A stretch of 64,000 nt of DNA from Massilia sp. Root418. Lineage in GTDB: Bacteria; Pseudomonadota; Gammaproteobacteria; Burkholderiales; Burkholderiaceae_D. Position 1 is the stretch's first letter; every line of letters starts with the position of its first letter. The notes under the pieces were generated by a model. That model was given only the letters and a program-made list of their open reading frames with translations. It made no database searches and had not been told where the DNA came from. Below, in pieces: positions 48,981 to 60,562 of the stretch. The position numbers and the translations under genes are program-made. The stretch lies in contig NZ_LMEC01000023.1 of NCBI RefSeq assembly GCF_001425265.1, forward strand, positions 1 to 64,000, given 5' to 3'.

Positions 48981-49370
48981 ATGGAACCCTACTACATCTC
49001 CGCTTCCCCCACTTCGCCCGAGATCGATTTCCGTTTCGACCAGCACACGCTGTCGATCAAGGGTGAATCGTATCCGGAAAACGCCGCGCAGTTCTACGGC
49101 CCGGTGATCGAGCAAGTGCGCGCCTACCTGGCCGCCTGCGGCCAGGCCGACATCACCGTCAACGTGTCGCTGGCCTACTTCAACAGCTCCAGCACCAAGA
49201 TGCTGTTTACGCTGTTCGAGGCGCTCAACCAGGCTGCCATGGACGGCTGCACGGTGCGCCTGAACTGGTACTACGACGAGGACGACGACACCATCCTGGA
49301 GTTCGGCCAGGAGCTGCAGGACGACTTCGGCGCTCTGGAGTTCAGCAACCATCCCGTGGTCCATGGCTGA
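48981..49370 (+). CDS. siaC: SiaC-like regulatory phosphoprotein (DUF1987)
   Basis: 129 aa. The conserved core YFNSSSTKMLFTLFE contains the likely phospho-acceptor Thr72, equivalent to the site used in Pseudomonas SiaC. Unphosphorylated SiaC there binds and activates the diguanylate cyclase SiaD. The N-terminal SPTSPEIDF and the FRGESYPEN-like segment match DUF1987. The end overlaps the siaD start by eight bases. Confidence 0.88.
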   Translation: MEPYYISASPTSPEIDFRFDQHTLSIKGESYPENAAQFYGPVIEQVRAYLAACGQADITVNVSLAYFNSSSTKMLFTLFEALNQAAMDGCTVRLNWYYDEDDDTILEFGQELQDDFGALEFSNHPVVHG

Positions 49371-50085
49371 ACCGGACCTGTTCGCCGCCGAAAGCGCGGT
49401 GCTGGCCGCCGCGCGCGCGGCGCACGAGGACGACGGCGCCGGCGCCGCCGAGTACCGCCGCGTGCTGGGCGAAATGATGGTGCACTACGAACGCCTGATG
49501 CGCGAGACGCGGCGCCTGATCCGCCGCAGCGACCGCGCCGAGCGCGACATGAACCAGTTGAACCGCCAGCTGCACGAGCTGGCCGGCCAGCTGGAATACC
49601 GCGCCACGCACGACCCGCTGACCGGCGCCCTGAACCGCGCCGCGCTGATCGAACGCGCCAGCGGCCTGCTGGAGCAGGACGACGTGGCCCTGATCGTGCT
49701 CGATATCGACCACTTCAAGCAGGTCAACGACGACTTCGGCCACCCGGCCGGCGACGCCGTGATCCAGGCCGTGGTGCGCTGCCTGACCGCCTTGCTGGGC
49801 GAGCAGGTCGACGTGGGACGGGTGGGCGGCGAAGAGTTCTCGGTGGTGTGGCCGACCCGCCACATGGCGGAAGCGGCCGTGCTGGGCGAGCGCATTTGCC
49901 ACGCCATCGCGCGCGAAGTGTTCGCCGCGCCGATCGACCGGCCGGTGACGGCCAGTGTGGGCATCAGCTGGAACCGGCGCGGTACGCCCTTCGACGCGGC
50001 CTACCTGCGCGCCGACGAGGCGCTGTACGACGCCAAGCGCGCCGGCCGCAACTGCGTGCGCCTGGCGCCGCCGGCGGGCCGGTGA
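49363..50085 (+). CDS. siaD: SiaD-like GGDEF diguanylate cyclase
   Basis: 240 aa. N-terminal about 75 residues form a coiled-coil stalk (ERLMRETRRLIRRSDRAERDMNQL) like that of SiaD, by which SiaC clamps the dimer. The GGDEF domain follows: THDPLTGALNRAAL, DIDHFKQVNDDFGHPAGD, and the active-site loop GRVGGEEFSV (GGEEF). No RxxD inhibitory site is seen at the usual place before it. Cytoplasmic. Expected product cyclic di-GMP, promoting aggregation or biofilm. Confidence 0.9.
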   Translation: MAEPDLFAAESAVLAAARAAHEDDGAGAAEYRRVLGEMMVHYERLMRETRRLIRRSDRAERDMNQLNRQLHELAGQLEYRATHDPLTGALNRAALIERASGLLEQDDVALIVLDIDHFKQVNDDFGHPAGDAVIQAVVRCLTALLGEQVDVGRVGGEEFSVVWPTRHMAEAAVLGERICHAIAREVFAAPIDRPVTASVGISWNRRGTPFDAAYLRADEALYDAKRAGRNCVRLAPPAGR

Positions 50086-50100
50086 ACGGGAATTGAACCG

Positions 50101-50188
50101 GTCTCCACGGAGACAGTGCTCGCTTCAACGTTGAAACTGCGTTAATCTCTACGGCGCTCCTGACCCATCCGCGCCGCCCGATTAACGC
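50101..50188 (+). promoter_or_regulatory. Leader of the ECF sigma gene with three inverted repeats
   Basis: GTCTCC-AC-GGAGAC (50101-50114), TTCAACGTTGAA (50124-50135) and distant arms GCGTTAATC / GATTAACGC (50139-50147, 50180-50188). All perfect, crowded into the gap before the sigma factor gene. Probably control sites. Confidence 0.5.
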
Positions 50189-50208
50189 AAGCTTCACCGA
50201 GGCATACC

Positions 50209-50796
50209 TTGGCATCAGCGTCCCAACCCGATCCCCAGCAACTGCGCACCTGGCTGGCCGCCGCCGCCGCCCGCGATGCCAAGGCCTTCCGCTCCCTGTA
50301 CGACGCAACTTCCCCGAAACTGTTTGGCTACGCGCTGCGTATATTGCATAAGCGCGAGCTGGCCGAGGAAGTGCTGCAGGAGAGTTTCGTCTCTATCTGG
50401 AACAGCGCCCGCAGCTACCAGAGCCAGTTGGCCGCGCCCATGACGTGGATGGCAGCCATCGTGCGCAACAAGGCGCTCGATGCGCTGCGCCGCACGGACG
50501 GAACCCTGGAGATCAATGTGGAAACTTTCGACAGCAGCATCCTGAACGCCTTGCACGATCCAGGCGCCACGCCCATCGAGGCGCTGCAGATCAGCAGCGA
50601 CGCCAGGGCCCTGGCCTACTGCATGTCGATGCTGGAAGGGCTGCACCGGCAGGTGATCGGCATGGCCTTTTACCATGACCTGTCGCATAGCGAGGTGGCG
50701 CAGCAGATGGCCATCCCGATCGGCACGGTAAAGACCTGGATACGCCGCAGCCTGGAGCGCCTGAAGACCTGCCTGGCGAAGGAGGAAAGCAAATGA
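50209..50796 (+). CDS. ECF-type RNA polymerase sigma factor (SigK-like)
   Basis: 195 aa with a TTG start; CGAGG lies six bases upstream and no earlier ATG fits. Region 2 ([54 protein letters not shown]) and region 4 ([49 protein letters not shown]) are complete. Its stop overlaps the anti-sigma gene by four bases. It may drive the convergent DUF4331/HupE operon; that link rests on position only. Confidence 0.93.
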
Positions 50797-51506
50797 ACCT
50801 CCGCGACAAGCCGGGCCTGCGCGAAAAGCTGGCCGCCGAATATGTGCTGGGCACCCTGAAAGGCGGCGCGCGGCGCCGCTTCGAGGGCCATATGCATAAC
50901 GATGCGGCACTGCGCCGCACCGTGGGCGAATGGCAGGAGCGCCTGCTGCCGCTGTCCGAATTCGCCGGCGAGCAAAAGCCGCGCGCGGAGGTCTGGCGCG
51001 GCATCGAGCGGCGCCTGAACCTGAAGGGGCCGGCGCCGGCCTGGCAGTTCTGGCGCCAGGAATCGGTGGGCTTCTGGCGCGGTTTGAGCCTGGCATCCGG
51101 CGCGGTGGCGGCACTCGCCGTGGTGGTGGCGGTGACGCTGACGCAGGCGCCCGTGGAAGCGCCTGCTATCAACTACGCCGCCACGCTGACGGACGAGCAA
51201 TCGCAAACCGCCATCCTGCTGACCGGCGACAGCCGGCGCCAGGTGCTGGAGGTGCGCGTGGTGAACAGCGTGGCCGTGGCGGACGACAAGACGCTGCAGC
51301 TGTGGGCGATACCGAAGCAGGGCAACCCGCGCTCGCTGGGCATCCTGCCGGACAACCGCAGCGCGAAGCTGGCGCTGTCCGAGCGCGCCATCGGCAGCGA
51401 CGTGCAGCTCCTGGCGATCAGCCTGGAGCCGAAAGGCGGCTCGCCTAATCCAAACGGCCCCACCGGGCCGGTGCTATACAAGGGTAACTGGGTGAGGTTG
51501 CTGTAA
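50793..51506 (+). CDS. RskA-type anti-sigma factor
   Basis: 237 aa. N-terminal cytoplasmic anti-sigma part ([25 protein letters not shown], with [16 protein letters not shown]), one membrane helix (about residues 93-113, [17 protein letters not shown]) and a periplasmic RskA domain ([39 protein letters not shown]). It holds the partner sigma factor at the membrane until a signal arrives. Confidence 0.92.
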
Positions 51507-51515
51507 AGCGCCGGG

Positions 51516-54500
51516 TCAGAACTTGTGCGTCAGCGTGAGCCTGACGGCGCGCGGCTCGACGGGGTGAAAATGGCGGTCCGCCACCCCTTCGGCCGCTTCG
51601 CCCGGCAGGCGCGAGGCGTAGAAGTAGTCGATGTCGCTGGCACGCTTGTCGAACAGATTGAAGACGTCCAGCGCGAGGCTGGTTTTACCGCTGATCCTGT
51701 AGCCCAGCCGCGCGTAGGCCAGGGTGGTGGCGGCCGAGCGCACGCTGTTGTCCTCCACCAGCGGCCGCGCGCCGAAGTAGCGCAGCTGCAGCGCGCCGGA
51801 CCAGCGCTGCAAGTCCGTCACCGTCACGCCGAAGGAAGCCGCTTTTTCCAGCGCGCCGGGAATGTGTTTGCCCGCCGGATCGTCGTCGCGGTAGCGCGCG
51901 CGGGAGACGGCCAGGTCCAGGTCGAACAGCAGCCATGGCCGCGCGACATAGTGGTTGTTCCATTCGATGCCGCTGCGGCGGCTGGCGCGGCTGGCTTCCG
52001 TTTCGCCCGCGTCGCCGACAAACACCAGTTCCGAATCCAGATCCAGCCGCCACAGGGCCAGTGAGCTTTGCAGGCCGGGCAGCAGTTCGCTGCGCACGCC
52101 GGCTTCATAACCGCGCGTGGCGGCCAGCGGCGTGGCCGGCTGCGACGGCGTGCCGTCGGCCAGGCGGGTTTGCGTTACGCCGCGCGCATCGTTGCTGTGG
52201 AAGCCCTTGCCGAAGTTGAGGAAGTATTCGGTGCGCGCCCAGGGGCCGAAGATCAGCGACAGCTTGGGCGACACGATGCCGGCGGAGGCTTTGCCGCCGC
52301 TGCCGGCGTCGGCCGTGGCGCCGGCGACCGAGAAGCGGTATGCGTCGTAGCGCATCCCGGCCACGGAGCGGAACCGCGGCAGCCACTGGGCCACGTGCTC
52401 GGCGTACAGCGCGGCGCTGCTTTCGGCGACGCGGTCTTCGCGGATGGTGCCGGTGCGCTGGCGCGCGCGTGTGGTGTACAGGCCCACCGGTGACAGCCTG
52501 TCGTAGCGGCCCTGTGCACCGATCCTGCTGCGCATCTCGATGCCGTTTACCGCATGCAGCCAGGTATGGCTGGCGTCGAAGCCTGCCAGGTTGCGGCGTT
52601 CGCTCTGCTTGAACTGGTCGCCCTGTTCGGGATCGGCCAGCAGATAGGTGAAGTTGCTGTACAGGTCCAGCCTTGAATGGATTGCGTAGGCGCTCAGTTC
52701 GGAGCGGGTGTTGGTGCTGCGCCGGTGCAGCTGGTAGGACAGGCTGTAGCGCGTGCTGTCGCCGCCGTCGCTGGCGTCGAGCGTGCCATAGCGGCCAAGC
52801 TGTCCGGATGCCACCGCCCGCAGCGGCACCTGGTCGGTGGCGTTCCAGCGGTTGCGGTAGGCCATGGCGGTGACGCTGTAGCCCTTGTCCGCCGCGCCGT
52901 CGCTGTAGCGCAGCACTGCGCTGTATTTGCGCACGCGTTCGGGTGTGTCCCAGGGGCCGTCGTTGTGGTTCGCTTCCAGCGCATACAGCAGCCTGCCGCC
53001 GGCGGCAGTCATGCCGGCGCTGCCTGCCACCACGGCCCGCATGAAGCCGTTGCCGCCCATGGTGGCGCTGGCCACGGGCGGCAGCTCGTCCGCCAGGCGG
53101 ATGCGGGCCGCGCCGGCGGAGGAGAAGTCGCCGTCTTCGGCGAAGTAGGGGCCTTTGCGGTAGTCGATGCGCTGCACCAGCTCCGGGATCAGGAAGTTCA
53201 TGTCCGCGTAGCCCTGGCCATGTGCGTGGCTGCGCATGTTGACCGGCATGCCGTCGATATAGGTGGCGAAGTCGGTGCCATGGTCCAGATTGAAGCCGCG
53301 CAGGAAGTACTGGTTGGCTTTGCCGTCGCCGCTGTGCTGGGTGACGATCATGCCGGGCACGAACTCCAGCAGTTCGCCGGTGCGCAGCGCGGGCCGGCTG
53401 GCGATCAGGCTGGACGTGATGCGGCCCTGGCTGGATGCGTCGGAGGTGCCGACGGCGTTGTCGTAGTGGCCCACCACGGCCACCACCAGCGGCGGTTCGG
53501 CCGCGAAGGCCCGCTCGCCGAACCACATGCTGGCCGCCACGATGATCATCGTCGAGCCGCCCATCACCACCACGCGGCGGTAGAACCAGGTGGCGCGCAG
53601 CAGGAAGGCCAGCGGCAGGAATGCCGCCACGATGGCCAGCTGCCCGAGTTCAACGCCGGCGTTGAAGCCCAGCAGGGCCAGTAGCAGCGATCCCTCCGGC
53701 AGTCCCAGGTCGCCCAGCACGCCGGCGAAACCGAAGCCGTGGATCAGGCCGAAGGCGAAAGCACCCACCCAGCGCCGCGTGTGCACGAAGGGCCTCAGGT
53801 TGTTCAGCGCAGCGGCGACCACCGAGGCGGCGATCACGGATTCGACCAGCTGAGACGGCAGCGCCACCACGCCGAGTGCCGCCAGGCTGAGGGTGATGGA
53901 GTGCGCCAGCGTGAAGGCGCTGACGGTCTTCAGCACGTCGATGGCGGCCACGCGGAAGTCGGGCGCTTCGCGCCAGGCGCGGTCGCGCCAGACCAGTACG
54001 GACGGCAGCAGCAGCGAGAGCAGGAACAGGATATGGTCGTAGCCGATCCAGATGTGCCACACGCCGTGCTTCAGGTAGGCGCTGAACTGCGCCAGGCGGG
54101 ACGACTGCGCCAGCTGCAGCACTTGCTCCGGCTGGTCGCTGCCGAAGATGGCGCTGCTGCTGTGCGGCGAGCCGCCGGCCGCGTGCTCCAGGCGCAGCAG
54201 GCCTTTGTGCTGCGGGTCGGTGTCGGCGAACAGGCGGTAGCCGATGCGCAGGGCTTCGGGGACGGCAGGGCAGTGGGCGCGGAAGCGCAGCACGGAGTAT
54301 GCGCCGTCGGTGTGGTTGTCGATCAGTTGCGCGCCGGCGGCGATGGTGCAGGGGGCGGAAGCGGCGCCGCCGGTGGCCAGGCTGAGGCGGGACAATGCGT
54401 AGGCGGCTATTTGCGGGTGCCGCTCGCGCACTTCGTCCCAGGTGAGCTGGCCGTCGCCGTCGCTGTCCAGGCCCAGCGCGTAGTCCAGGTCGCGCAGGGC

Positions 54501-54656
54501 GATGTCCCATTGGCCGTCGATCTGCTGGCCGGCGGCGCGCAGGGTGAGGTAGCTGTCGCTGGGCTTGTGGGCGTGCGCGGTGCCAGTCGCCAGCACAGTC
54601 GCCAGCACGGCTGCCGGCAGGGCTTGGATGGTCGATGCGAGCAGGCTGCCCATCAT
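51516..54656 (-). CDS. HupE/UreJ-like membrane domain fused to TonB-dependent receptor
   Basis: 1046 aa in one open frame. Residues 1-30: signal peptide (ending AHA). Residues 64-75: an EF-hand-like loop DSDGDGQLTWDE. Residues about 196-380: HupE/UreJ-2 membrane domain (HGVWHIWIGYDHILFLLSLL, FGLIHGFGFAGVL), a putative metal (Ni/Co-type) permease. Directly after its last helix comes AFAAEPP, then a TonB plug (about 395-525; ELLEFVPGMIVTQHSG, YFLRGFNLDHG) and a beta barrel ending in Phe. HupE belongs to the inner and the barrel to the outer membrane, so cleavage at AFA-A would be needed. The start overlaps the TPR gene stop (ATGA). Confidence 0.88.
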   Translation of the reverse strand: MMGSLLASTIQALPAAVLATVLATGTAHAHKPSDSYLTLRAAGQQIDGQWDIALRDLDYALGLDSDGDGQLTWDEVRERHPQIAAYALSRLSLATGGAASAPCTIAAGAQLIDNHTDGAYSVLRFRAHCPAVPEALRIGYRLFADTDPQHKGLLRLEHAAGGSPHSSSAIFGSDQPEQVLQLAQSSRLAQFSAYLKHGVWHIWIGYDHILFLLSLLLPSVLVWRDRAWREAPDFRVAAIDVLKTVSAFTLAHSITLSLAALGVVALPSQLVESVIAASVVAAALNNLRPFVHTRRWVGAFAFGLIHGFGFAGVLGDLGLPEGSLLLALLGFNAGVELGQLAIVAAFLPLAFLLRATWFYRRVVVMGGSTMIIVAASMWFGERAFAAEPPLVVAVVGHYDNAVGTSDASSQGRITSSLIASRPALRTGELLEFVPGMIVTQHSGDGKANQYFLRGFNLDHGTDFATYIDGMPVNMRSHAHGQGYADMNFLIPELVQRIDYRKGPYFAEDGDFSSAGAARIRLADELPPVASATMGGNGFMRAVVAGSAGMTAAGGRLLYALEANHNDGPWDTPERVRKYSAVLRYSDGAADKGYSVTAMAYRNRWNATDQVPLRAVASGQLGRYGTLDASDGGDSTRYSLSYQLHRRSTNTRSELSAYAIHSRLDLYSNFTYLLADPEQGDQFKQSERRNLAGFDASHTWLHAVNGIEMRSRIGAQGRYDRLSPVGLYTTRARQRTGTIREDRVAESSAALYAEHVAQWLPRFRSVAGMRYDAYRFSVAGATADAGSGGKASAGIVSPKLSLIFGPWARTEYFLNFGKGFHSNDARGVTQTRLADGTPSQPATPLAATRGYEAGVRSELLPGLQSSLALWRLDLDSELVFVGDAGETEASRASRRSGIEWNNHYVARPWLLFDLDLAVSRARYRDDDPAGKHIPGALEKAASFGVTVTDLQRWSGALQLRYFGARPLVEDNSVRSAATTLAYARLGYRISGKTSLALDVFNLFDKRASDIDYFYASRLPGEAAEGVADRHFHPVEPRAVRLTLTHKF

Positions 54657-55957
54657 GGCAGGCTCCGCGCGGCAACGGTGATGGCGGCCCGCGGCAGGGG
54701 AGACTGCGTGGCCAGCTGCGCGGCGAGCGGCTGGATGCTGCCGTCTTCCAGGCCGCTTTGCGCCAGCCAGGCCAATGCGGGCGCTGCGGCGGCGCGGTCG
54801 TTCGCCTGCCGGGCCGCTTCGAGCAGGATGCGCAGGTCGGCCGGCTCCTTTTGCACCGCCCAGTTTTGCAGCGCCAGCGCCAGTGCAGCCTTGGCGTTGC
54901 CGCGCAAATGCAGTTCGTAGCGGGCCTGCTCGCGCTGGTGCACGCTGTCGCCACGCAGTGCGGCCGCGTCGAAGCGCGCCTGCAGTTCACGCACGTCTTC
55001 GGCCAGCGCCGCTTGCCCCGCTGCGGAGGGCTGCAAGTCCTGGCTTTGCTTCAGGGCCAGCGCGTGGCGCAGCAGCAGGCCGTCGATGCGGCGCTGTTCT
55101 TTCAGCAGGCCGGCCGCTTCGCCGGGCCGCTGCCGGTCCAGCAGGAAGTCGGCGTAGGCGCCCAGCAGGTAGCTGTCGCGCGGGGCCAGCTTGAGCGCGG
55201 CCAGATAGCGCGCTTCGGCGGCGCGGGCGTCGCCGCGCCGGGTGGCCATTTCAGCCAGCTGCGTCAGTGTCCAGGATTGCATGGCGGGGTCGGCGCCGCC
55301 GCTGCGCTGCAGGGTGGTGGCCAACAGCAGCTCGCTCCTGCGCAGCTGCCCTGTGAGGCCGGCGACGTTGGTCAGGCAGGTGATGCTGGCCAGTTCGCCC
55401 GCCAGCGCGGACAGGCGCGCGCAACTGGCCGTGGCGGCGCGGTACTGTCCCAGCACCGTCTGCACGGTGGCGCGCGTAAGCCAGGCTTGCGCATTGGCCG
55501 GATCGGCCGCCGTTACGGCGTCCAGGTCCGCCATGGCTTCAGCGAAATGGTGCGTGCCCTGCAGCAGGGTGGCGCGCAGCAGGCGCACGGGGACGGGGGG
55601 CGCCGCCTGGCTCCACCAGGGCGCCAGCGCGGCCTGCGCATAGCCGAAGTAGCGCGGGTCGGCTTCGCTGCGGCCGGCGGCAATGTAGCGCTGGGCCAGC
55701 GTGGCGGCCAGTTGCACGTCCTTCGGCGCGGCCGCCAGCTGCAGCCGCATGCGGCGCAGTTCCTGCTGCTGCGGGTCGGCGCGGCGCGGCAGGGTTTCCA
55801 GCACCTCGGCGCCGCTGCGGGGCAGATAGGGCGCTGCCTGCGCGGCCGGGGCCTGCAGCGCGACGATGGCGGCGAAGGCGGCCGCGATCAGCAAGGGGGC
55901 CATGACCGCCGCGTTGGCGGATGGGGGAACGGATACGGGATTGCAGACGCTGTTCAT
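54653..55957 (-). CDS. Exported tetratricopeptide-repeat protein
   Basis: 434 aa from the ATG at 55957 (a TTG 15 bases earlier is possible). N-terminal membrane/signal segment (APLLIAAAFAAIVALQAPAAQAAP), then helical TPR-like pairs through the protein (ATLAQRYIAAGR, WLTRATVQTVLGQYRAATAS, RYLAALKLAPRDSYLLGAYADFLLDRQRPGEAAGLL). Periplasmic. Second-last gene of the DUF4331 operon and coupled to the HupE-receptor gene, so it probably assists that system. Confidence 0.82.
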   Translation of the reverse strand: MNSVCNPVSVPPSANAAVMAPLLIAAAFAAIVALQAPAAQAAPYLPRSGAEVLETLPRRADPQQQELRRMRLQLAAAPKDVQLAATLAQRYIAAGRSEADPRYFGYAQAALAPWWSQAAPPVPVRLLRATLLQGTHHFAEAMADLDAVTAADPANAQAWLTRATVQTVLGQYRAATASCARLSALAGELASITCLTNVAGLTGQLRRSELLLATTLQRSGGADPAMQSWTLTQLAEMATRRGDARAAEARYLAALKLAPRDSYLLGAYADFLLDRQRPGEAAGLLKEQRRIDGLLLRHALALKQSQDLQPSAAGQAALAEDVRELQARFDAAALRGDSVHQREQARYELHLRGNAKAALALALQNWAVQKEPADLRILLEAARQANDRAAAAPALAWLAQSGLEDGSIQPLAAQLATQSPLPRAAITVAARSLP

Positions 55958-56022
55958 GGTAGTGCCATCCAAAGGAAAACCCTGCGCCGCGCGGGGTTGG
56001 GCGCGGCGCAGGGCGTTGCCGG

Positions 56023-56283
56023 CTACTCCGCCGGTTCGGTGTTTTCCGGCGCAGTAAGGGCTACACCGTCGATCGCTACCGGTTCCTTGTCCTCCGGGCT
56101 GGCGCCGATGAGGCTCAGCACCGAGGAATAGAAGGCGTCGGCCATGGTCACCGGCGGTGGCACGACCACCGGCGGCGTTGCGCCGCCGCCGGAGCCGCCG
56201 GAGCCGCCGCAGGCGGACAGCAGCAGGGCCAGGGCAAACGCTGCCAGCGGCGCGCGTGTTGTGATGCGGATGGGCGTTTTCAT
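56023..56283 (-). CDS. Small lipoprotein
   Basis: 86 aa. Signal sequence ends in lipobox LLSAC-GGSGGSGGG, followed by a Gly/Pro linker (PPVVVPPPV) and a short acidic tail. Anchored in the periplasm by lipid at Cys25. No further family recognised. It lies ten bases after the DUF4331 gene, with 65 bp to the TPR gene. Confidence 0.8.
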   Translation of the reverse strand: MKTPIRITTRAPLAAFALALLLSACGGSGGSGGGATPPVVVPPPVTMADAFYSSVLSLIGASPEDKEPVAIDGVALTAPENTEPAE

Positions 56284-56293
56284 GGCGCCCTCC

Positions 56294-57799
56294 TTATTTC
56301 TGCGGCGAGCCGGCCAGCGGCGTCTTCAGGTAGGGGAAGCCGGCCGTGACGAAGGTCTCGTCCAGGTAGGCGCCGTCGGTGAAGCGCAGCGCGCCGGCAG
56401 GAGCGTCGGCCGGCGTGCAGCCCAGGTTCAGGGTGCACAGCTTGCCCATCATGACGCGCAGCGCGATATCGACCACGTCGTCGCCCGGGCGGCGGCCATT
56501 GGGGAAGCCCGCGTTGTCGCCGTCGATCACGCCCAGGCGTTTTTGCGCGCCGGGGGCGGTGGGAGCGATCGAGGTGTTCAGGCGCAGCATCTCGGATGCG
56601 GTCACCGTGGCGGGCTGGTTCAGGCCTTTCACGCCGGTGAGGAAGGCTGCCACCAGGTCGTTGCGCGGGAAGTTGGTGGGCGCCTTGGCGCCGGCGCTGC
56701 CGTACAGGATCTCCACCAGCGCGGGCAGGGTGGGGTTGGTCACGTAGTCGGCGAACTGGCCGTCGGCCGACGGTTTGCTGTGGTTGAAGCGGTCCTTGTC
56801 CTTCAGGCCGATCACCACCTCATTGACCAGCGGCGCGCCCAGGCGCGACACCTGGGTCCAGGCGCCGCCTTCTTTCGAGGCGCCCACGGCGCTGCCTGGC
56901 GTGGCGTTGAGGATGCGGCCCTGGCGCAGGCTGGCCGTGGTCCAGCCGCCGATCACGGGATCGCCGCCGGCGGCTGCCGCGGTCAGGCAGTCGGCCGCCA
57001 CTTCCAGCTCGATCGCGGTGACGTTCTTGAGCGCCAGGTCGTCGCGCGCGTTTTTCTCGGCGGTGGCCAGGAACTCCACTGCCGGGGCCTTGATGTTGAT
57101 CAGGTCGAAGGTTTCGCCCAGGTTGACCACGAAGGGATCCTTGCGCTGGCCGACAAACATGCGCGCCGGGGTGGCGCAACCGGGAATGTTCACCGCGTAC
57201 ACGTGCTTGGCGGCGTAGGCTGCGTAATCCGGGATGGTCTTGTTGCCGATGTTGTCCACCGGCTTGTCGAAGGTGCCGCCGCCGCCGGCCGCGTTGGTGA
57301 CTGCCGTGCGCGTGCCGCCGCGCCGGTCGCCGCGGACCACGGCCACGCTGTAGGTCTCACGCACATTCAGGCCGGCGGGGTTGAGGTCGTTGACCGCGCC
57401 GCCGTTGATCACCAGCGGGATCGATACCTTCTTGCCACCCACGGTGAGCTGGGTGTCCTTGTTGGTGCTGGAAAAGCGGAACTGGAAGGTGAGGTCTTCC
57501 TTGGCGTCGCCGTTGTTGTCGATGTGGATCTCGTACAACGCGTCCGGGTCCATGGCGAAGTAGTTCGGACCGCCGTACGCGTCCTGCAGCGGTACGTAGT
57601 TGGCAATCAGGGTGACGAATTTCTCGCGCCCGGGCTCATAGCTGCGGAACATATAAAAGTCGGTGGCGTCGACTTTGGGCTGTTTAGTGATGAAAGGTGC
57701 TTCCCGGTGGCTCGATGCGAACGCTTGCGGTGCCAGTGCCAGGGCGATCAGGTTGCCGATCAACCAGGTCCGCAACGGGTACGGTCTGAAATGTGCCAT
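56294..57799 (-). CDS. DUF4331 domain exported protein
   Basis: 501 aa from the ATG at 57799 (AGGGGAA ribosome-binding site). Signal peptide (LIGNLIALALAPQAFA), then ASSHREAPFITKQPKVDATDFYMF, the hallmark opening of DUF4331, and DNNGDAKEDLTFQFRF, a calcium-type Asp-rich loop. Ends with NGRRPGDDVVDIALRVMMG. Function of the family is unknown. First gene of the lipoprotein-TPR-HupE/receptor operon. Confidence 0.9.
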   Translation of the reverse strand: MAHFRPYPLRTWLIGNLIALALAPQAFASSHREAPFITKQPKVDATDFYMFRSYEPGREKFVTLIANYVPLQDAYGGPNYFAMDPDALYEIHIDNNGDAKEDLTFQFRFSSTNKDTQLTVGGKKVSIPLVINGGAVNDLNPAGLNVRETYSVAVVRGDRRGGTRTAVTNAAGGGGTFDKPVDNIGNKTIPDYAAYAAKHVYAVNIPGCATPARMFVGQRKDPFVVNLGETFDLINIKAPAVEFLATAEKNARDDLALKNVTAIELEVAADCLTAAAAGGDPVIGGWTTASLRQGRILNATPGSAVGASKEGGAWTQVSRLGAPLVNEVVIGLKDKDRFNHSKPSADGQFADYVTNPTLPALVEILYGSAGAKAPTNFPRNDLVAAFLTGVKGLNQPATVTASEMLRLNTSIAPTAPGAQKRLGVIDGDNAGFPNGRRPGDDVVDIALRVMMGKLCTLNLGCTPADAPAGALRFTDGAYLDETFVTAGFPYLKTPLAGSPQK

Positions 57800-57871
57800 G
57801 CTAATTCCCCTTTTGTAGTGTGGTGTGGAGGTGCTGCACACGCATATACGGGACGGGGAAGGAATCGGATT

Positions 57872-57917
57872 CAGAAAAATATAAATTTGGCCAGGGCGTC
57901 CGGCACCGGACCCTGGC
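57872..57917 (-). terminator. Terminator of chrA
   Basis: On the minus strand GCCAGGGTCCGG-TG-CCGGACGCCCTGGC (57890-57917, one two-base bulge) is followed by a T/A-rich run containing TTTATATTTTT. It lies 51 bp after the chrA stop and separates it from the DUF4331 operon. Confidence 0.7.
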
Positions 57918-57968
57918 TATCCGCCGCTAGGGCCGGGGCGGCGCATGGCGCCATGGCGGCATGGCGGC

Positions 57969-59324
57969 CTACGCGGCGCCGGCCAGCCGCAGCGCCAGCC
58001 CGGCCAGCGCGCAGGCGGCGATGACGTGCATCACATTGGCCTTGTAGCGCAGCAGCGCCACGGCCGCGCCCAGCGCAATCAGCGCGGACAGCCAGTCGAA
58101 GCGGAGGGCAAAGCCCTGCGGCCACAGCACGTGGTAGGCGAAAAACAGCGCCAGGTTGACGATCACGCCCACCACGGCGGCCGTGATGGCGGTGAGCGGC
58201 GCGGTGAACTTCAGGTCGCCGTGCGTGGACTCGACCAGCGGGCCGCCGGCCAGGATGAACAGGAAGGAGGGCAGGAAGGTGAACCAGGTCACCAGCGCGG
58301 CTGCCGTGGCGCCGGCCAGGAACAGCGCGTCCGGCCCCAGCGCGGCCTTGGCGTAGCCGCCCACGAAGGCCACGAAGGCCACCACCATGATCAGCGGGCC
58401 GGGCGTGGTTTCGCCCAGCGCCAGGCCGTCCATCATCTGCGCGGCGCTGAGCCAGCCGTAATGGTCCACCGCGCCCTGGTAGACGTAGGGCAGCACCGCG
58501 TAAGCGCCGCCGAAGGTGAGCAGGGCGGCCTTGGTGAAGAACCAGCCCATTTGCGTCAGCGTGTGCTGCCAGCCGAAGAGGGCCGCCAGCGCCGCCATGG
58601 GCACGGCCCACAGCGCGGCGCCGGCGGCGGCGATGCCGGCCAGCTTGCGCCAGCTGAAGCGCGCGTGCGCGGGCGTGGGCGTGTCGTCGTCGATCAGCGC
58701 GGCGCCAAAGGACCGCGCCGCCGCGCCGTGGCCGCCGCCAAGCTGGAATTTGTCCGGCATGAAGCGCCCGCCCGCATAGCCGGCCAGCCCGGCGGCCAGC
58801 ACGATGGCGGGGAAGGGCACGCCGCCGGCGAAGATGGCGACGAAGGACGCCGCGGCGATGGCCCACAGCCAGCCGTTCTTCAGCGTGCGTCCGCCGATGC
58901 GGTGCGCCGCCTGCAGCACGATGGCTGTCACGGCGGGCTTGATGCCGTAGAACAGGCCGGCCACCAGCGGCAAATCGCCAAAGGCAATATAGACCCAGGA
59001 CAGGCCGGTGAGCAGCAGCAGCGATGGCAGCACGAACAGCCCGCCAGCCACCAGGCCGCCACGCGTGCGGTGCATCAGCCAGCCGATATAGGTAGCCAGC
59101 TGCTGGGCCTCCGGGCCGGGCAGCAGCATGCAGTAATTGAGCGCGTGCAGGAAGCGCCGCTCCGAAATCCAGCGGCGGCGCTCCACCAGCTCCTGGTGCA
59201 TGATGGCGATCTGCCCGGCCGGGCCGCCGAAGCTGATGCAGCCCAGCTTGAGCCAGAAACGGAAGGCATCGCCGAAGCGGACGGGGGCAGGTGAGGCTTG
59301 GTCTGGCGGGGCTGGTGTGCGCAT
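57969..59324 (-). CDS. chrA: Chromate transporter (CHR family)
   Basis: 451 aa, the length of the two-domain CHR proteins. Each half begins with a family motif: KLGCISFGGPAGQIAIMHQE (about residue 27) and FTKAALLTFGGAYAVLPYV (about 263), with PGPEAQQLATYIGW in the first half and ETTPGPLIM in the second. About ten membrane helices. Exports chromate, sulfate as likely competitor. No chrB regulator is adjacent. Confidence 0.93.
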   Translation of the reverse strand: MRTPAPPDQASPAPVRFGDAFRFWLKLGCISFGGPAGQIAIMHQELVERRRWISERRFLHALNYCMLLPGPEAQQLATYIGWLMHRTRGGLVAGGLFVLPSLLLLTGLSWVYIAFGDLPLVAGLFYGIKPAVTAIVLQAAHRIGGRTLKNGWLWAIAAASFVAIFAGGVPFPAIVLAAGLAGYAGGRFMPDKFQLGGGHGAAARSFGAALIDDDTPTPAHARFSWRKLAGIAAAGAALWAVPMAALAALFGWQHTLTQMGWFFTKAALLTFGGAYAVLPYVYQGAVDHYGWLSAAQMMDGLALGETTPGPLIMVVAFVAFVGGYAKAALGPDALFLAGATAAALVTWFTFLPSFLFILAGGPLVESTHGDLKFTAPLTAITAAVVGVIVNLALFFAYHVLWPQGFALRFDWLSALIALGAAVALLRYKANVMHVIAACALAGLALRLAGAA

Positions 59325-59431
59325 GCGGCTGGGCTGGTCGTGGCAATGACGGCCATTCTAGCAAGATGCCGCCTTCAAGCCATGATGCGGCGCCGTCCGG
59401 CAGGAGCCGGGCAGGCTCGGCTGCGCAGGCG

Positions 59432-60562
59432 TCAGGTGGACACTTTGTGCCGGGGCAGGCTGATGGTAAAAATGCAGCCTGTTCCGGGCACGTCGCGCAA
59501 CAGCAGTTCGCCGCCGTTGGCCAGGACACTCTGCCGTGCGATTGTCAGTCCCAGCCCCAGCCCGGTCCTGTCGGCGCCGGGCTGCGAGAAGGGCTGGAAC
59601 ATGCTCTCTCCCACACCTGGGCCGAGCCCGCCGCAGTGGTCTGCCACGTCGATCAGTATGCGGTTTCCTGCGGCGTAGGCGGTGAGCCTGACCTCGGTCC
59701 CGGGCTGGCTGAATTTGAATGCGTTCTGCAGCAGGTTGGCCGCCGCCGTGATGAGCAGGTCGCGGTTGCCGCTCAGCGCCAGCTCTTGGTCGACGGCTGC
59801 CACGCACAGGGTACAGCCGTAGGCCATGGCAGACAGCGCCGCAGGCGCTGTTATCTCGTCAATATAGTGCGCGAGGGAGAAAGCGCTGAGAATCTGGCTG
59901 GCGGCATCGGCCACCCTGACGTCCTCCAGCGAGTTGGCGATCAGCTTGTCCAGATTATGCAGGCTGCGTTCGAGGATGGCCCCGGTGGCGCCATTGAGGC
60001 TGAGGCTGCCGGCCTTGGCAGCCGAGAAGGCCAGCGACGCCGTGCCGAGATGGTTGCGCAATTCTTGCGCGAAAAACCCCATCCGTTTATTCGATTCATT
60101 GGCACAGGCGTCGGCCAGCAATATATCGCGCTGATAGCTGAATTCCGTCACGGCGTCGGAAATGGCGTTGTCCAGGCAACGGTTCAGGGTGCGGAACTCG
60201 TCAACCTCGAATGGCGCGTCGCGCTCCACGGCGAGGTCGGTGATGGCCTGGCAGAGATCGCCGCAGGCGTGGACCACCTGGTCGACCGTCAACCCCAGGC
60301 TCAGCAGCGCTTTTCCATGCTGGGCCGACGCCGCGCCGATGTCCGACATCGCCGCGCTCCCGCCGGCCGGGCCCGACACGCGGCGGCTGGCCTGGGGATT
60401 TTTCGTCTGTTCGATCTCAAGGGTGCGGATCAGCTGGTCGAGAAACAGGGGGATGCCGTGTCTCAGCTGGCGGTTGGAGTCCGACTTGCCTGCGCGGCTT
60501 TCGACTTTCATTCTGCATCGGCGGGCCAGTTCCTCCCGGTTGTTGGCTAGAAAAACATGCAT
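59432..60562 (-). CDS. Histidine-kinase-like ATPase, paralogue A, H-box His replaced
   Basis: 376 aa. N-terminal helical region (residues about 30-150; IPLFLDQLIRTLEIEQ, HGKALLSLGLTVDQVV) resembles RsbRD-type stressosome helices. The dimerisation segment reads FFAQELRNHLGTASLAF, with Gln166 where the phospho-acceptor His is expected; a His follows at 171. The ATPase is otherwise intact: NLLQNAFKFSQPG, DVADHCGGLG, GLGLGLTIA. Cytoplasmic. GGAG lies ahead of either of two adjacent ATGs (60565, 60562). Close paralogue of the kinase at 61530. Confidence 0.85.
   Translation of the reverse strand: MHVFLANNREELARRCRMKVESRAGKSDSNRQLRHGIPLFLDQLIRTLEIEQTKNPQASRRVSGPAGGSAAMSDIGAASAQHGKALLSLGLTVDQVVHACGDLCQAITDLAVERDAPFEVDEFRTLNRCLDNAISDAVTEFSYQRDILLADACANESNKRMGFFAQELRNHLGTASLAFSAAKAGSLSLNGATGAILERSLHNLDKLIANSLEDVRVADAASQILSAFSLAHYIDEITAPAALSAMAYGCTLCVAAVDQELALSGNRDLLITAAANLLQNAFKFSQPGTEVRLTAYAAGNRILIDVADHCGGLGPGVGESMFQPFSQPGADRTGLGLGLTIARQSVLANGGELLLRDVPGTGCIFTISLPRHKVST

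Follow-up and report, generated by a model that had tools for sequence, protein, structure and literature searches.

Separation of a membrane protein from an exported protein within one translation product is known from Bradyrhizobium japonicum, where the cytochrome b/cytochrome c1 polyprotein FbcH is reportedly separated by signal peptidase at an internal signal. Both products reside in one inner-membrane complex, and cytochrome c1 keeps its own signal sequence. Analysis of a 64,000-nucleotide stretch of Massilia sp. Root418 (contig NZ_LMEC01000023.1, positions 1 to 64,000; this whole stretch is called the window) revealed a gene on the reverse strand that joins a HupE/UreJ-2 permease to a TonB-dependent receptor in a single reading frame. 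The described systems closest to the permease half are proteins with an Ang-1 domain, a periplasmic domain whose conserved N-terminal histidine is exposed by removal of the signal peptide and is bound to copper in the crystal (PMC12537917). Ang-1 is proposed there to feed the permease, and transition-metal binding by His1 is reported for RbAng-1a (PMC12537917). The analysis presented here argues, with a probability of about 0.7, that the last permease helix of the fused protein (helix 6) doubles as the signal sequence of the receptor and that signal peptidase I cuts after residue 385, which would yield two proteins.

One reading frame encodes a permease and a complete receptor

The gene at 51516-54656 on the reverse strand runs from ATG to stop without interruption over 1046 codons. 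Pfam searches assigned residues 194-355 to HupE_UreJ_2 (PF13795; expect value [E] 4e-48, 163 bits against a cut-off of 24.5), residues 412-516 to Plug (PF07715; E 1e-14, above cut-off), and residues 589-1001 to the TonB-dependent barrel (PF00593; E 2e-24, above cut-off). The C-terminal residue of the receptor is Phe. The open frame, the Pfam domains, and a structural model agree in placing a polytopic domain ahead of an exported domain within one frame. In the 7.27-Mb host genome, the plug domain is matched 92 times and PF13795 twice, with a single HupE of this subfamily; a paralogous receptor elsewhere in the same genome (G000:C11:379013-379372) is 65% identical over most of the plug region.

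The fusion is rare and derived

The same unbroken in-frame fusion is present in Massilia sp. Root351 (locus L063), with a protein identity of 86% overall, 91% in HupE, and 83% in the receptor. A query spanning the joint (residues 290-520) gave a full-length, stop-free match in 2 of the 74 genomes of the genus, namely, the window's own and Root351. The same query found some match at E values up to 1e-60 in 57 of these genomes, and HupE was matched in 58. All candidates were scored in the genus set; in the order and phylum samples, with at most 7 candidates scored per genome, the joint was spanned without a stop in the window's own genome alone (1/399 in the order, where 89 genomes had a match at E up to 1e-25, and 1/398 in the phylum, where 39 had one at E up to 1e-20). 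In these searches, no widespread fused architecture was found.

A contig search found 149 relatives, of which 80 loci were kept. Root351 ranks best, and in the remaining 79 the HupE gene has its own stop shortly past the last helix. Inspection of matches reaching past the joint in genomes G329, G386, G539, and G1142 revealed no HupE in frame with a receptor: in G329 (match without a stop) and G386 (stops inside) the stretch contains a receptor that has a start of its own and lacks HupE, G539 (stops inside) has HupE alone, and G1142 (stop inside) has the receptor alone. In G410 the HupE and receptor genes are both present, in different frames. A whole-protein search of 392 family genomes, with at most two candidates scored per genome, yielded among the matches listed three long frames (L004, L008, and L020) without a HupE match. 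A literature search that covered few subscription journals found no HupE-receptor fusion in titles or the beginnings of abstracts.

In a tree of 46 HupE sequences, the window and Root351 form a clade (support 100/99), and the sister of this clade is the unfused Pseudoduganella aquatica (100/100). The fusion is derived, because the fused pair nests with an unfused sister, and on this evidence from sequence comparison it arose once. A separate in-frame run-on was observed in locus L037 (genome G219), where HupE reads ERAF|GWQVLPQN... and continues into no more than the C-terminal 186 residues of a receptor (48% identity). This is an independent event, and the receptor part seems to be a decayed remnant.

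The joint replaces the stop, start, and signal peptide of the unfused pair

Comparison with unfused relatives was based on 11 different adjacent pairs (13 rows, since L035/L064 and L036/L065 are the same contigs; L045, in which the receptor matches over its first 64 residues only in its locus, was used only for the N-terminus). In all of them, HupE has its own stop, and the receptor has its own start and, as judged by eye, a signal-peptide-like N-terminus; the first possible receptor ATG lies from 23 bases before to 73 bases after the HupE stop. In P. aquatica, HupE ends in ERAFDIKLAAL-stop and directly precedes a receptor gene that has a start codon and a signal peptide of its own. Gone in the two fused species are the HupE tail past ERAF, the stop, the receptor start, and the signal peptide, a loss of about 100 to 180 bases that varies with the relative used. 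Because the start and signal peptide of the unfused neighbors sit exactly in the stretch that the fusion lost, the comparison favors the reading of two proteins.

The distance from the expected cut to the conserved GHYDN-like receptor start is the same by eye as in the fusion in 5 of the 11 pairs (L041, L043, L044, L045, and L046). The N-termini of these five receptors match the joint by eye without gaps. In L044, for example, ARA|DETPLVVQVVGHY stands against AFA|AEPPLVVAVVGHY of the fused protein; in a longer view, ...GAARA|DETPLVVQVVGHYNQS corresponds to ...ERAFA|AEPPLVVAVVGHYDNA of the window. By eye, the joint appears to lie on the old cleavage site or a few residues inside it, ahead of the conserved receptor start, and it need not coincide exactly with the ancestral cut.

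The joint forms A-F-A|A, which satisfies the -3/-1 rule for signal-peptidase sites. At the position of Ala385, 89 different unfused HupE tails have Asp (71), Asn (13), Glu (4), or Gly (1). The presence of Ala at -1, against Asp, Asn, or Glu in 88 of these 89 tails, likewise supports separation into two proteins. The unfused HupE tail of Duganella aceris (L096) ends in WAFAAK, a signal-peptidase-like site at the very C-terminus, by chance or not.

The earlier note on this DNA, made from the sequence alone, had described an unbroken 1046-codon frame in which the last hydrophobic HupE helix runs straight into a complete receptor ending in Phe, with neither a start codon nor a signal peptide of its own. 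This description is borne out by the open frame, Pfam, and Root351, by a modeled helix at 357-384 with AFA at 383-385, by plug and barrel above the Pfam cut-offs with the terminal Phe, and by the lack of the receptor's N-terminal signal peptide in the window and Root351, where the 11 unfused relatives show one by eye. The missing start codon also holds: the ATG codons M365 and M370 within helix 6 are not conserved in Root351, where they are Ala and Ile, and M377, although conserved, lies too close to the joint to begin a signal peptide.

Predicted topology places the joint in the periplasm

AlphaFold2 models were generated for the whole protein (alignment of 47 rows; mean predicted local distance difference test [pLDDT], 75.4) and for the mature HupE half (35 rows; mean pLDDT, 87.9). 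In both models, a beta-sandwich domain precedes six membrane segments, of which the first is broken and the last spans residues 357-384. Since the N-terminal domain is periplasmic and the number of segments is even, the C-terminal end of helix 6, and with it the joint, is predicted to lie in the periplasm; this placement by six helices behind a periplasmic domain is a further argument for two proteins. In the sequence, arginines sit in loops expected to be cytoplasmic, including RR at 360-361 ahead of helix 6. In the whole-protein model, mean pLDDT is 87 for residues 371-380, 47 for 381-390, and 26 for 391-400; the plug was also modeled poorly. Helix 6 has a hydropathy of 1.46 to 1.48 in the two fused proteins, lower than the median of 2.07 for the helix table of 91 rows (entries L090 and L135, mislocated by the motif search, are to be ignored).

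The permease half resembles Ang-1 proteins

Searching the Protein Data Bank with Foldseek revealed 9gce, the Ang-1 domain of a HupE/UreJ-2 protein, as the best match of the HupE-half model (E 4.5e-6; template modeling score, 0.59 by target length; root mean square deviation, 5.7; 16% identity). Sequence searches found no solved relative of the permease half, and the search with the 35-row profile did not return 9gce at E up to 10. The three helices between strands 2 and 3 of the beta-sandwich are present in the model, as in Ang-1. The boundary between signal peptide and mature protein reads AHA|HKPSDSYL, and His follows the boundary in 97 of 97 different N-termini, including the window and Root351 (92 by pattern, all preceded by a small-x-small site, and 5 by eye). 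The first membrane helix contains HIWIGYDH, in which H, D, and H are invariant in the 35 aligned rows; HX5DH in this helix is a HupE/UreJ-2 motif. The permease half resembles the Ang-1 metal-fishing permeases and has a predicted N-terminal His, so that the precursor would be cut twice, at 29/30 and at 385/386. Foldseek matches of the receptor include PqqU/YncD, FecA, BtuB, and OprC and do not settle its substrate.

Within the Ang-1-like domain, residues 64-75 (54432-54467, reverse strand), DSDGDGQLTWDE, have an invariant first Asp and last Glu in the 35 rows. The segment fits the EF-hand loop pattern, and a sequence search gave insignificant matches to calcium-binding chains.

Both halves remain under selection

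The window and Root351 were compared by the Nei-Gojobori method for the ratio of nonsynonymous to synonymous substitution rates (dN/dS; dS about 0.3). dN/dS was 0.17 for HupE, 0.52 for the HupE signal peptide alone, and 0.14 for helix 6 with the joint; it was 0.08 for the plug and 0.26 for the whole receptor (dS 0.31). Both halves are constrained, and this purifying selection counts in favor of two proteins. When only the first 450 codons of the receptor were compared, the ratio was 0.27 for the fused pair; 0.14, 0.14, 0.16, 0.27, and 0.53 for five unfused pairs; and 0.38 to 0.42 for mixed pairs. As judged from these ratios, selection on the receptor continued after the fusion, within the unfused range but laxer than in three of the five unfused pairs.

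Proposed mechanism and evidence on cleavage

In the mechanism proposed here, a deletion in the common ancestor with Root351 would have removed the hupE tail, the gap, and, from the adjacent receptor gene, its start codon and signal peptide, leaving the two genes joined in frame. The single translation product would serve as a precursor, whose HupE part is inserted by the export machinery. Removal of the N-terminal signal peptide after residue 29 would expose His30 of the Ang-1-like, metal-capturing domain. Helix 6 would cross from the cytoplasm to the periplasm, so that the receptor is exported behind it. Together with the flank GERAFA, this helix would substitute for the lost signal peptide, and signal peptidase I would cut after Ala385. 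The receptor would then be released to the outer-membrane assembly pathway, and the permease would stay in the inner membrane with its short C-terminal tail reduced to one Ala.

A cleavage-site profile was fitted on 30 receptors of the same genome. Rule-based placement of the cleavage sites of these receptors was tried and dropped (27 of 30 placed, several clearly wrong). With this small and overfitted profile, the top site of the window from residue 370 on is 385/386, at a weak 3.3 bits. On the well-conserved HupE signal peptide, the profile reached only 2.8 in the window, and it placed the site elsewhere in Root351.

Several observations weigh against the proposed mechanism. Only 4 of the 30 held-out receptors score lower than the window, 6 or more of 88 unfused HupE tails score higher, and AFA|AG of Root351 reaches -3.1, under the 99th percentile of the background (-1.4), with another place preferred. 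The modeled helix extends to residue 384, into the cleavage site. The expected mature leader is about 3 to 9 residues longer than in the fusion in L038, L040, L065, L114, and P. aquatica (9 residues in the last; L086 was not judged). Helix 6 of P. aquatica is also low in hydropathy (1.64), so part of the drop predates the fusion. Evolution is more rapid in the barrel (dN/dS 0.32) than in the plug, and the fusion is known from two species only.

The earlier note had proposed that helix 6 acts as the signal and that the cut follows AFA. This proposal fits the comparative evidence best, and the part concerning the site is weakly supported by the profile in the window and unsupported in Root351. 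The comparison with related genomes that the note had called for returned the same fusion in Root351 and separate genes in the 11 unfused pairs. As counter-evidence it had envisaged a stop or frameshift between the domains, and Root351 carries the same open joint. It had also envisaged relatives whose receptor has its own start and signal; such relatives exist, but what they show is a derived origin of the fusion; they are no evidence of its absence from the window.

Alternative explanations

The main rival is an uncut fusion in which HupE works as before and the receptor is tied to the inner membrane as a tolerated relic, without reaching the outer membrane. Cleavage is something that we infer, and the site profile supports the cut weakly in the window and not in Root351; the run-on of L037 into the last 186 receptor residues indicates that reading on into receptor DNA can be tolerated, the fusion occurs in only 2 of 74 genus genomes, and the paralogous receptor (C11:379013) could cover a loss. 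An idle receptor is nevertheless hard to reconcile with a complete sequence that has no stop or frameshift and has been constrained since the two fused species split (0.08 in the plug, 0.26 overall), with a ratio over the first 450 codons inside the unfused range, though laxer than in three of five pairs. We regard this explanation as unlikely, while giving it more weight than any other alternative. Separation by a periplasmic protease other than signal peptidase I would agree with the low pLDDT (below 50) of residues 385-454, a region that includes part of the plug, so that the low values may come from poor modeling just as well as from a flexible linker. Another protease is quite improbable, given that the joint is at, or no more than about 9 residues from, the expected signal-peptidase cut of unfused receptors and that residues -3 and -1 are both Ala.

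The receptor might also be translated separately from a start inside hupE, in which case helix 6 would work like any N-terminal signal peptide. Both fused genes have GTG codons at V362-364 (and V343), initiation at 362-364 would place hydrophobic residues at the N-terminus, and the start of HupE itself has only 4 of 6 AGGAGG matches. The starts at 362-364, however, match the Shine-Dalgarno sequence at no more than 3 of 6 positions and lack a positive n-region, no possible start up to 45 codons before the joint exceeds 4 of 6, and the ATG codons of helix 6 are unsuitable as described above. Synonymous positions near helix 6 show no conservation (dS 0.49, compared with 0.31 for the receptor). 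From these sequence features, an internal translation start is unlikely, to about the same degree as a different protease. Rarity alone would speak for a sequencing or assembly error that fused two genes; the independently sequenced Root351 has the same joint, flanked on either side by codon-wise divergence, by which an artifact was rejected and is now hardly conceivable.

With helix 6 favored as a cleavable signal, it is also probable, if somewhat less so than the cleavage itself, that the gene encodes a polyprotein for two membranes, in which helix 6 is both a permease helix and a cleavable signal, both steps of metal uptake are made in fixed ratio, and signal peptidase I acts at both ends of the permease. 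The fusion offers a natural before-and-after case, with close relatives that have or lack the receptor's own signal peptide. It bears on whether a structural membrane helix can act as a cleavable signal, whether a membrane-protein precursor can hand over a barrel to the outer membrane, and whether making outer receptor and inner permease in a fixed 1:1 ratio is workable, the outer receptor normally coming from its own gene. By tying an Ang-1-type permease to a specific outer-membrane receptor, the fusion supports one shared substrate.

Gene neighborhood

Root351, P. aquatica, P. namucuonensis, and P. ginsengisoli share the order DUF4331, tetratricopeptide repeat (TPR) protein, HupE, and receptor, and in each of them the anti-sigma and sigma genes converge on it. 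This conservation speaks for a shared function of the members. The cluster (50209-57841) is conserved in several Oxalobacteraceae, and partial versions occur in Crenothrix (L079) and Methylovulum (L086). In Janthinobacterium (L109, L116, L118, and L122), the pair has been rearranged: HupE and the receptor are on opposite strands and converge. A scan of 49000-60000 found no known RNA families near the genes at gathering thresholds, and DUF4331 turned up in no paper of the literature search, with its limited coverage of subscription journals.

Table 1. Positions in the window of the fused gene, its parts, and the neighboring genes (ECF, extracytoplasmic function)
Feature	Positions	Strand	Basis
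Fused gene, 1046 aa: signal peptide, Ang-1-like domain, HupE/UreJ-2 permease, TonB-dependent receptor	51516..54656	-	Open frame, Pfam, Massilia sp. Root351 counterpart
N-terminal signal peptide of HupE, residues 1-29, ending AHA	54570..54656	-	Sequence
His30, predicted N-terminal His (His1) once the signal peptide is removed	54567..54569	-	Comparison of N-termini; role of His1 per PMC12537917
Periplasmic beta-sandwich domain, Ang-1-like (predicted), residues 30-186	54099..54569	-	Model of mature HupE half, Foldseek 9gce
HupE/UreJ-2 membrane domain, residues 187-384, six helical segments, first one broken	53505..54098	-	PF13795, models, HX5DH
Last helix (helix 6), residues 357-384, proposed signal sequence of receptor	53505..53588	-	Model, hydropathy
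AFA, residues 383-385, proposed signal-peptidase I cut 385/386; codon 385 ends at base 53502	53502..53510	-	Relatives by eye, HupE tails, site profile (weak)
Putative mature TonB-dependent receptor, residues 386-1046; plug 53109-53423, barrel 51654-52892	51519..53501	-	Pfam, Foldseek
TPR-repeat protein gene, 4-base overlap (ATGA) with start of fused gene	54653..55972	-	Sequence, Pfam; order kept in relatives
DUF4331 protein gene, upstream member of conserved cluster	56294..57841	-	Pfam, synteny
Anti-sigma factor (RskA_C), convergent with fused gene	50793..51506	+	Pfam, synteny
Sigma-70 family factor, regions 2 and 4 only, ECF-like	50209..50796	+	Pfam, synteny

Comparison with known systems

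The stand-alone TonB-dependent receptors of the cluster (L064, L065, and L114) are 65 to 79% identical to the fused receptor and share the gene order, but have their own start and signal peptide. The Ang-1 "anglerase" HupE/UreJ-2 proteins (PMC12537917; PDB 9GCE) share with the permease half a signal peptide ahead of a conserved His, the beta-sandwich, and the PF13795 permease. The accessible text of that report describes no receptor fusion (PMC12537917); the end of HupE is altered in the Massilia protein, and identity to 9gce is only 16%. Outside bacteria, host signal peptidase cuts viral membrane polyproteins such as NTB-VPg of tomato ringspot virus (PMC5010249) past a hydrophobic stretch. 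NTB-VPg likewise has a hydrophobic membrane stretch followed by a signal-peptidase site inside a longer protein, in a plant virus and at the endoplasmic reticulum, where there is no outer membrane.

FbcH resembles the fusion in that a single gene encodes a multi-helix inner-membrane protein and then an exported protein. In the fusion, unlike in FbcH, what follows the inner-membrane protein is an outer-membrane barrel, and the role of signal would fall to the final helix of the permease itself. A polyprotein of this kind turned up in no title or beginning of an abstract in the literature searches, which covered few subscription journals. By analogy, the fusion would belong with signal-peptidase-separated membrane polyproteins such as FbcH, while joining products of two membranes.

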